NCBI GenBank assembly: GCA_007376125.1
Contig: VMFQ01000003.1
Location: 1-35,208, forward strand
Direction: 5' to 3'
Length of the DNA: 35,208 bases
Origin: Parcubacteria group bacterium Gr01-1014_33
GTDB taxonomy: Bacteria > Patescibacteriota > Minisyncoccia > Sungbacterales > HO2-52-23
Part shown: positions 5,797 to 29,871 of the stretch, in pieces
Numbering within the stretch: position 1 is the first letter of the stretch
Layout: every line of letters begins with the position of its first letter
Made by a program: the position numbers and the translations under genes
Notes under the pieces: generated by a model
The model's database searches: none
Seen by the model: only the letters and a program-made list of their open reading frames with translations
What the model was told of the DNA's origin: nothing

Positions 5797-5844
5797 GTCA
5801 TTGCGATCCAGCACCTTTCGCGAAAGGGGCTGGATCGCAATGAC
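5797..5844. repeat. TCATTGCGA-type palindromic repeat, copy 1
   Basis: The 16-bp arms 5797-5812 (GTCATTGCGATCCAGC) and 5829-5844 are perfectly complementary. The centre (CCTTTCGCGAAAGG) is itself palindromic, so nearly all 48 bases can fold. The outer TCATTGCGA/TCGCAATGA motif recurs at 15717-15821 and 21338-21498. Confidence 0.85.
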
Positions 5845-15716: not shown

Positions 15717-15821
15717 GTCATTGCGAGGAGGACAAACGATTAGCAATCGTTTGTCCGACAAAGCAATCCCGTGCGCGCGCGGCTTTATTCCTTGAGATTG
15801 CTTCGCTCCGCTCGCAACGAC
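15717..15821. repeat. TCATTGCGA-type palindromic repeat, copy 2
   Basis: Outer arms GTCATTGCGA (15717-15726) and TCGCAACGAC (15812-15821) pair with one mismatch. An inner perfect hairpin GACAAACGAT/ATCGTTTGTC lies at 15731-15755. It occupies the gap between yebC and the PH-domain gene. Confidence 0.85.
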
Positions 15822-21306: not shown

Positions 21307-21337
21307 CTTTTTAATACACTGTAACCCCTCACACCTA

Positions 21338-21498
21338 TCATTGCGAGTCCCGCTGATAAAAACGAGTAACAATCGTTTTTATGGACGCGGCAATCTCATC
21401 CTCGGAATGGTCGATTACTCGGAAGTCAAGATTGCTTCGGAGAAATGATTGGAAAAAATGATTGCCAACCATTTTCTCTCATTTTTCCTCGCAATGAC
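21338..21498. repeat. TCATTGCGA-type palindromic repeat, copy 3
   Basis: The left end TCATTGCGAG and right end CTCGCAATGA are perfectly complementary. The inner part has smaller hairpins (AAAACGA...TCGTTTT). It is the longest of the three copies and lies upstream of the promoter of the lipoprotein-like gene. Confidence 0.8.
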
Positions 21499-22573: not shown

Positions 22574-23593
22574 ATGGATGTGGAAAATAAAATTACAATA
22601 CTTACTCCGGACGGCTGGACTGATTATGCGCTCCTTGACTCGGGTAACGGGAAAAAACTGGAGCGGTTTGGCGCATACACATTTGCGCGTCCGGAGGCGC
22701 AAGCATTATGGCGGCCAAAGATGTCTTTGCGGGAATGGCAAAACGCGGATGGAATTTTTACCGCATCTTCGGAAGAGGGGAACGGAAAATGGGAATTGAA
22801 AACGCGCGTTCCAGCGCGTTGGGAAATGGGCTACGGCAAACTCCGATTTTTCGCGCGGGCGACGCGGTTTCGCCACTTGGGAGTATTTCCGGAACAGGCG
22901 GTGCATTGGAATTGGATATTTTATTTGGTGGCAAAAGAAAAGCGCCCGATAAACCCCCACACCTATTTCCCGCAACAATCTTCAATGGTTCTTTCTGAAC
23001 CGGATACCCATATCCTCGGGAAAGAAAATTTTTCACAGAAAGCCAACCCTCGCCAAAATCAGCGGGAAATAAGTGTGGGGGTAAAAATACTTGATCTTTT
23101 CGGCTATACCGGCATTGCCACACTTTCCGCGGGGCTTGGGGGAGCGGAAGTGACGTATGTGGATGCGTCTCCAAAGGCAATGCAATGGGCGCGGGAAAAT
23201 CAAACGCTTTCGGGACTTGCCAAAAAGCCGATCCGATGGATCGCGGACGATGCGCTTAAATTTATCAAACGTGAAGTAAGGCGTGGGGCGCGCTATGATG
23301 GGTTTATTATTGATCCGCCGAAATTCGGGCGCGGTCCCAAAGGGGAAATCTGGGATTTTTATACATCACTTCCTCCGCTTTTGAATGAATGCCGTTCGCT
23401 TTTTTCAGACAATCTTTTATTTGTCGCGCTTACGAGTTACGCAATGCGCATGTCTTCCGTGAGCATCCGGCAGATGCTTGAAGAAATGGTGCACGCACGC
23501 GGAGGCGAGATTGAATCGGGTGAATTAGCCGTCCAAGAAGAAAATAGGGGAAGGATTTTGTCGCAGGCAATATTTGCGAGATGGACACGGTAG
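22574..23593 (+). CDS. RlmI/RlmK-like class I SAM-dependent rRNA methyltransferase
   Basis: This 339-residue protein has the COG1092-type 23S rRNA cytosine methyltransferase pattern. The SAM-binding motif is ILDLFGYTGIATLSAGLGG and the acidic motif VTYVDASPKA. The catalytic-region motif is IDPPKFGRGPKGE, and the N-terminal part has FPEQAVHWNWI. It lacks an obvious PUA domain. An approximately 43-residue stretch between KEKRP and VKILDLF is encoded by a 130-bp palindromic element and interrupts an otherwise short loop, but the frame is intact. It follows tsaE by 6 bp. The exact target base is not deducible. Confidence 0.88.
   Translation: MDVENKITILTPDGWTDYALLDSGNGKKLERFGAYTFARPEAQALWRPKMSLREWQNADGIFTASSEEGNGKWELKTRVPARWEMGYGKLRFFARATRFRHLGVFPEQAVHWNWIFYLVAKEKRPINPHTYFPQQSSMVLSEPDTHILGKENFSQKANPRQNQREISVGVKILDLFGYTGIATLSAGLGGAEVTYVDASPKAMQWARENQTLSGLAKKPIRWIADDALKFIKREVRRGARYDGFIIDPPKFGRGPKGEIWDFYTSLPPLLNECRSLFSDNLLFVALTSYAMRMSSVSIRQMLEEMVHARGGEIESGELAVQEENRGRILSQAIFARWTR
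22953..23082. repeat. Palindromic element inserted in frame in the methyltransferase gene
   Basis: Arms of 21 bp, 22953-22973 (ACCCCCACACCTATTTCCCGC) and 23062-23082, are complementary at 20 of 21 positions. The interior (88 bp) has smaller hairpins such as GGTTC/GAACC. It encodes about 43 residues just before the SAM-binding motif. The CCCCCACACC end is shared with a hairpin at 29782-29812. Confidence 0.85.
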
Positions 23594-29732: not shown

Positions 29733-29863
29733 TTTATCCCGCACCTTTCCAGAATACTCCGCAGTCGGCTCTCGGGGATGAACCCCCACACCAAAACTTT
29801 TGGTGTGGGGGTGAATGGATTCAGAGCAATCCTTCCTGCGGGGTCTAATACCCTGCAGGAAGG
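29733..29863. repeat. Composite palindromic element B (with TAATACCCT hairpin)
   Basis: The left end (TTTATCCCGCACCTTTCC) resembles element A at 14072. It contains a perfect 15-bp hairpin with a 1-nt centre, 29782-29796/29798-29812 (CCCCCACACCAAAA), and a hairpin around TAATACCCT (29831-29843/29851-29863). It lies between holA and the rpsT 3' end. Confidence 0.75.
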
Positions 29864-29871
29864 TGTGGGAT

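Follow-up and report, generated by a model that had tools for sequence, protein, structure and literature searches.

The COG1092-like methyltransferase gene at 22574-23593 of the window (the whole 35,208-nucleotide stretch analysed here) is interrupted in frame by a 128-bp palindrome that is absent from its homologues. We consider it likely, with a probability of about 0.85 for the reading as a whole, that this insert is one copy of a non-autonomous, MITE-like family of mobile palindromes in Patescibacteria. The mobility of the element and the 4-bp target duplications that it makes are shown by comparison among copies; the enzyme that would move it and the translation of the inserted codons are inferred. 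The features of the interrupted gene are as follows.

22574-23593, + strand: host gene, COG1092-like SAM-dependent methyltransferase, 339 aa, interrupted in frame (ORF; PF10672, 1.5e-07; PDB 2igt, 4.6e-87)
22950-22953, + strand: left TAAA, 4-nt direct repeat (target duplication), read from the sequence
22952-23083, + strand: 44 extra codons, residues 127-170 (in the relatives and 2igt, RP-[VL] is joined directly to K/E-[IV]-L)
22954-23081, no strand assigned: palindromic element, 128 bp (arms; covariance model R1, E 1.2e-23, this copy being itself among the model sequences)
22954-22973, + strand: left arm, CCCCCACACCTATTTCCCGC, which codes for PHTYFPQ after N
22974-23061, + strand: variable interior, 88 bp, open in the host frame
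23062-23081, + strand: right arm, GCGGGAAATAAGTGTGGGGG, which codes for REISVGV
23082-23085, + strand: right TAAA copy

The palindrome arms lie at 22953-22973 and 23062-23082; they are 21 nt long, 95% complementary and separated by 88 nt, and the direct repeat TAAA (22950-22953 and 23082-23085) flanks the element. Because the outermost A/T pair of the 21-nt arms is part of this repeat, the element proper was taken as 22954-23081, that is, 128 bp with 20-bp arms. Together with one TAAA it amounts to 132 bp, or 44 codons. A search of the whole window with the arm-core pattern, allowing up to 3 mismatches, returned only the two arms, against 0.07 matches expected. The RNA fold of 22954-23081 was predicted at -50.5 kcal/mol, compared with a shuffled mean of -26.4 (z -8.4; none of 200 shuffles was as low). 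The host frame remains open from 22574 to 23593, palindrome included. The first-pass annotation had described near-perfect 21-bp arms about 88 bp apart, an addition of about 43 residues between KEKRP and VKILDLFGYTG, and a frame that stays open; all of this held in substance, with the element trimmed by one pair and the exact count corrected to 44 codons.

Searches of 55 genomes, including the genome under study, identified the methyltransferase in five relatives, all without the insert. The matches were split around the insert in all five, and the two pieces abut in the DNA in four. The insertion edges were aligned for three of these relatives, L006 and L007 having been left out when the motif filter missed them: the interrupted protein reads KRP-I-[insert]-KILDLFGYTG, compared with RPVKVLNLFGYTG, RPVEVLNLFGHTG and RPVKILNLFGYTG in the relatives. 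Around the insertion point the relatives have RP-V-KVLNLFGYTG (L003), RP-V-EVLNLFGHTG (L004) and RP-V-KILNLFGYTG (L005), and removal of the element and one TAAA (44 codons) from our sequence leaves RP-I-KILDLFGYTG. The sharpest edge was obtained with PDB 2igt (4.6e-87), which matches two stretches of the protein, 5-126 and 170-338, and whose residue 155 aligns with residue 126 and again with residue 170. The palindrome is therefore real and is an insertion in the methyltransferase. It places 44 codons just before the first SAM-binding motif; their position and open frame are shown, and their translation, the loop they would form and the retention of activity are inferred. The first-pass annotation had suggested aligning homologues and searching the genome for further copies, and had stated that homologues with the same residues and no palindrome would refute it. 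Both checks were positive: the five relatives and 2igt lack the inserted residues, no refuting homologue was seen, and related copies were found in other genes and outside recognised genes.

Further copies in the same genome were located with the arm-core pattern. Covariance model R1, which was built from five of the genome's copies and counts these among its matches, identified 11 places at E < 1e-3, 10 of them full length. Five full-length copies lie in frame inside unrelated genes and five outside recognised genes, one of the latter (C14) in a 125-codon open frame of unknown status. The in-frame hosts are the window methyltransferase (MT) and genes for a CHASE2-adenylate cyclase (C8; PF05226, PF00211), MsrB (C66; SelR), a GT4-type glycosyltransferase (C13) and a GT39/PMT-type glycosyltransferase (C42; PF13231). 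In MsrB, the target duplication is visible in the protein: the GIY that closes residues 1-48 and the GIY that opens residues 90-173 align to a single GIY of 2k8d. For the GT4-type enzyme, the five nearest relatives match from residues 2-3 to 108-116 and resume at about 145-157, the two matches being no more than 15 nt apart in the DNA; judged from sequence alone, this fits a 35-residue insert absent from all five. For the GT39-type enzyme, nine relatives match to about residue 59 and then from about 105, with a gap of at most 15 nt in eight of the nine, leaving about 47 residues missing; the insertion measures 138 bp, or 46 codons, and consists of a 133-bp core and a 5-nt repeat, TCAAA. Four of four CHASE2 relatives lack roughly 47-57 residues, in a variable loop with soft edges. 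Homologues without the insert thus exist for all five genes, the CHASE2 case being the softest.

None of the five genic copies interrupts or shifts the frame of its host gene, each adding a multiple of three nucleotides, and no out-of-frame copies were seen in recognised genes. For a copy outside genes, the probability of being both in frame and open averages 0.075 (80 copies); five of five would be unexpected at this rate unless an open frame matters. We infer, in the absence of expression data, that such a frame filter speaks for translation of the inserts and against their being bypassed.

The mobility of the family is supported by its flanks. For this analysis, copies were chosen by their arms and not by repeats. 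The set contained 85 rows, of which L067 proved to be a second view of L173, leaving 84 Patescibacteria copies to be tested; 11 of these, full-length only, come from the genome under study and include C15 (R1 E 0.65), and C42 was scored as 139 bp because of its 5-nt repeat. Exact 4-nt direct repeats bound 55 of the 84 copies, against a shuffled mean of 5.6, and none of 10,000 shuffles reached 55. The other 29, including this genome's C13, C81a and C15, have no exact 4-nt repeat. By subset, a direct repeat of at least 4 nt was present at the ends of 10 of 18 palindromes in this genome (other subfamilies included), and a 4-nt repeat at 31 of 41 copies from three other genomes. The commonest duplicated sites, counted on either strand, were CTTG (14), TTTA (13), TATA (11) and TTGA (8).

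Arm pairing was assessed in 25 aligned copies from this genome and the GTDB scan. Across 19 arm pairs, 96.8% were standard pairs; eight pairs had changed on both sides, and the covariation score was 0.364 compared with 0.119 after shuffling. Slid arm pairings were at most 57% paired, with scores of at most 0.14. Selection by arms favours pairing in the conserved part, CCCCRCACYTAYTTT; the search pattern does not reach the variable pairs 16-19, and the positions adjoining the conserved part vary among copies yet still pair. The interiors are mostly unalike, apart from some subfamilies (MT/C8, C59/C14 and one set in Nomurabacteria). At L066, two copies in opposite orientation within one genome are similar over the whole element.

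An exact arm-pattern scan of 84,980 GTDB species returned 29 stretches, found only in Patescibacteria (Kaiserbacteria, Yonathbacteria, Nomurabacteria and other Parcubacteria), Desulfonatronospira and Planctomycetota. With model R2, 21 of 237 genomes of the class, including the genome under study, gave matches at E <= 1e-5. This genome had the most, and only one other genome of its family had any, with a single copy; the spread across the class is thus patchy. Class relatives G085 and G135 correspond to loci L048 and L066, their elements and flanks being identical; both are named Patescibacteria or Parcubacteria, and the window is assigned to that group accordingly. Nearly all copies in other genomes lie outside protein genes. 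The exception is a 63-bp member in frame (PHTYF...VGEG) within an EamA-transporter/glycosidase ORF (G098, L182:1097-1159); no homologues covering this insertion spot were found, and it was not counted as a genic gain. None of the 12 distinct arm-matching copies in Desulfonatronospira and Planctomycetota carries a 4-nt duplication, and we note only that this set has the arm pattern in common, without claiming it for the same family. Desulfonatronospira CSSed11_143 (G069) alone has 309 + 312 arm-pattern matches, many of them hairpins of about 60 bp, which constitute a high-copy palindrome family. Viral contigs gave no arm-pattern matches, plasmids gave no matches to the element DNA, and, in the loci searched, Rfam assigned the element to no family.

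Some members lie in or beside RNA genes. One copy in G098 (L119:1502-1637) is inside 23S rRNA, with its hairpin at LSU model position 583, which we take to be helix 25, and a near-identical copy (L119:2491-2626) is found immediately 5′ of the 23S match; neither has a 4-nt duplication. In Phycisphaerae, an arm-matching palindrome (L072:4577-4684) lies within RNase P RNA, although it belongs to the group without duplications. Two Desulfonatronospira loci (L050 and L062) have RNase P-like flanks that were not confirmed by Rfam. Helices 9, 25 and 45 are common sites of intervening sequences, whose origin has been called unclear (PMC4990558), and Rickettsia palindromic elements (RPE) have been reported in tmRNA and RNase P RNA (PMC2229807). 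On a bolder reading, the intergenic hairpins of Patescibacteria, their in-frame protein segments and their 23S rRNA intervening sequences would all derive from one family of palindromes that is mobilised in trans and makes 4-bp target duplications. We would not quite back this reading at present. If it were true, the long-debated rRNA intervening sequences would acquire a transposon origin, and ultra-small, streamlined genomes would gain protein segments by transposition.

Other repeats were observed in the window and the genome. Two features near rpsT carry the same motif or are nested within it:

29737-29870, no strand assigned: related composite palindrome beside rpsT, outer arms TCCCGCACCTTTCC / GGAAGGTGTGGGA, TTTA on both sides; same motif, different subfamily
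29783-29811, no strand assigned: 29-bp hairpin, CCCCCACACC..GGTGTGGGGG, nested in the composite, TGAA on both sides

The window also contains a GTCATTGCGA-type repeat at 5797-5844, 15717-15821 and 21337-21498 (eight matches with at most 1 mismatch, against 2.45 expected), and 5797-5844 forms a near-perfect 48-bp palindrome of this type. Elsewhere in the genome, on C10, a weak tRNA match (L113:708-772; 39.5 bits) lies between CCCCGTACCTTTTT and CAAAAGGTGTGGGG, as though the tRNA were the palindrome interior. Hairpins of 36 bp with related ends (C8:3265-3300, C77:11537-11572 and C42:11152-11187) are flanked by GTCATTGCGAGGA-like and GCGGCAATCTC-like sequences and are apparently nested in another repeat.

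In the mechanism we propose, an unidentified transposase, whose existence is inferred, would recognise the conserved ends. It would have to act in trans, because the 88-bp interior cannot encode one. A staggered 4-nt cut, preferring sites such as TTTA, CTTG, TATA and TTGA, would produce the 4-bp duplication, the length of which suggests, by inference, a DDE-type enzyme. As the ends are inverted repeats, the peptide in the commonest frame would have PHTYF at one end and VGV at the opposite end whichever way the element had inserted. Genic copies would survive only when the combined length of element and duplication is divisible by three and one frame is free of stops; in the methyltransferase, the 44 extra codons would then be translated as a hydrophilic loop ahead of the first SAM-binding motif.

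No longer element with the same ends and no transposase with them was found in the draft genome, in which all arm matches with at most 2 mismatches were listed. These numbered 38 + 35, against 19 + 17 for a reversed control, which indicates that many weak arm matches are due to chance. Arm-pattern searches of four other genomes likewise revealed no transposase or longer element with these ends. In this genome and those four, most arms face each other in pairs with a spacing of tens to about 140 bp; no pair was seen at insertion-sequence distance. Mobilisation by a Y1/RAYT enzyme was considered and judged unlikely: the hairpins carried by the genome's two Y1_Tnp genes are different ones, and the 4-nt duplications also speak against it, since Y1 enzymes are not expected to duplicate their target. 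These two genes (C2 and C22) are each bracketed by a hairpin of their own, and in each the transposase ORF itself contains a third copy of that hairpin, at a similar position:

L107:1207-1231, 1751-1775 and 1959-1983: Y1_Tnp hairpins
L108:1221-1244, 1740-1762 and 1951-1974: Y1_Tnp hairpins

As a separate observation, a DnaA-box-like TTATCCACA is present at the junction in 5 of 85 copies (C81b (L038), L065, L163, L184 and L189); for comparison, the loci as a whole contain 11 such boxes over 274,962 bases. Such junctions possibly hint at targeting and at a link to replication.

The peptides encoded by the inserts appear to be tolerated rather than functional, an inference that rests on sequence comparison alone. 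Those of MT, C8 and C66 are more hydrophilic than their host proteins, and those of C42 and C13 are near the host average. Interior changes between MT and C8 fall at codon positions 1/2/3 in the ratio 14/16/11, so no selection on the peptide is visible. The methyltransferase, used as a query, picks up C8 and C66 at 40-44% identity; for MT and C8, protein similarity is about equal in different frames (z 4.5, 4.3 and 4.2). Nothing here demonstrates that the protein is produced or active with its insert.

Among the alternatives, exaptation survives best, though we regard it as unlikely. It holds that the inserts are a useful new segment, such as a binding loop or a regulatory one, kept by selection. 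In its favour, five of the 10 full-length copies are genic and every one is open, and three inserts of equal length resemble one another at their ends and, to some extent, as proteins when read in the host frame. Against it, changes are spread evenly across codon positions, the host genes are unrelated, and the MT/C8 similarity is about as high in other frames, as shared DNA ancestry alone predicts.

It is very unlikely that the element is an ordinary hairpin (a terminator, a REP or an RNA-stability element) shared by chance and not mobile. Many copies in other genomes are indeed intergenic, and the high-copy short palindromes of Desulfonatronospira (309 + 312 arms in one genome) have similar ends. 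However, the target-duplication signal excludes a non-mobile origin for most copies, five genes show a precise gain relative to homologues, and the oppositely oriented pair at L066 is similar over the whole element. Translational bypass, in which the ribosome would skip the hairpin as in the byps of Magnusiomyces mitochondria (a case mentioned in PMC6649704), is equally hard to sustain: the mRNA hairpin is strong (fold z -8.4), but byps are untranslated and bypass requires neither a length in threes nor an open frame, whereas all five genic inserts have both. An assembly or binning artefact is all but excluded, since the same family with the same flank rule occurs in complete or long contigs of other genomes and genes are intact on either side, even though this is a draft metagenome assembly of 86 contigs without reads in which contig C81 ends at a copy whose right half is carried by two further contigs. 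The copy that these contigs (C37, C57 and C81) have in common at their ends might suggest a recent duplication; an assembly branch fits equally well, and it was not used as evidence.

Having set these alternatives aside, we compare the mobile palindrome with known systems. REP/REPIN sequences mobilised by RAYT (Y1) are likewise short palindromes in many copies; a Y1 gene flanked by the same palindrome was not seen here, the two Y1_Tnp genes carrying other hairpins. The intervening sequences of 23S rRNA resemble our family in being palindromic inserts at helix 25, the site of one Patescibacteria member, and this member ties the palindromes to a class of insert of unclear origin (PMC4990558). 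They differ in that the window copy lies in a protein gene (mRNA) and not at an rRNA helix tip, and the 23S copy has no target duplication. Bacterial MITEs (Correia/NEMIS, ERIC and RUP) are similarly non-autonomous, with terminal inverted repeats, target duplication and some ORFs fused in frame (PMC2229807). The element satisfies the MITE criteria of terminal inverted repeats, a target-site duplication and an 88-bp interior without a transposase, although those MITEs have TA at their termini, whereas our element has a varied 4-nt duplication and no parent insertion sequence was found in the draft genome or in the four others searched. No description of palindromic elements, MITE or REP in CPR/Patescibacteria was found in the literature searched, most subscription journals lying outside it; within that scope, the first-pass statement that no CPR example was described held.

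The closest parallel is with RPE and their Wolbachia equivalent, which are about 105-150 bp long, have inverted-repeat ends, and lie in frame in unrelated genes, in intergenic DNA and in RNA genes such as RNase P RNA and tmRNA (PMC2229807, PMC10969869). At 128 bp with 20-bp arms, the element meets the RPE size and end criterion (range 100-150 bp). Its end sequence and phylum are different, and its 4-nt target duplication is clear, whereas that of RPE is entered as '?' in PMC2229807. The scan of 84,980 GTDB species gave no record in Rickettsia or Wolbachia, although it covered exact arms only and RPE sequences themselves were not compared. The first-pass likening to RPE therefore held for behaviour (in frame, translatable, about 130 bp, also outside genes and, for related copies, in RNA genes) and failed for family identity; its term 'selfish' remains an inference and is not shown. 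Rickettsia and Wolbachia have so far supplied most descriptions of protein-coding mobile palindromes, whose mode of movement is still open. A family with unrelated ends, in a different phylum and with sharp 4-nt duplications in a set of >80 copies, allows direct tests of the rule of insertion, of the filtering by frame and of what becomes of the inserted peptide. Overall, the element acts like RPE and has the anatomy of a MITE, and by the arm test it is not RPE.
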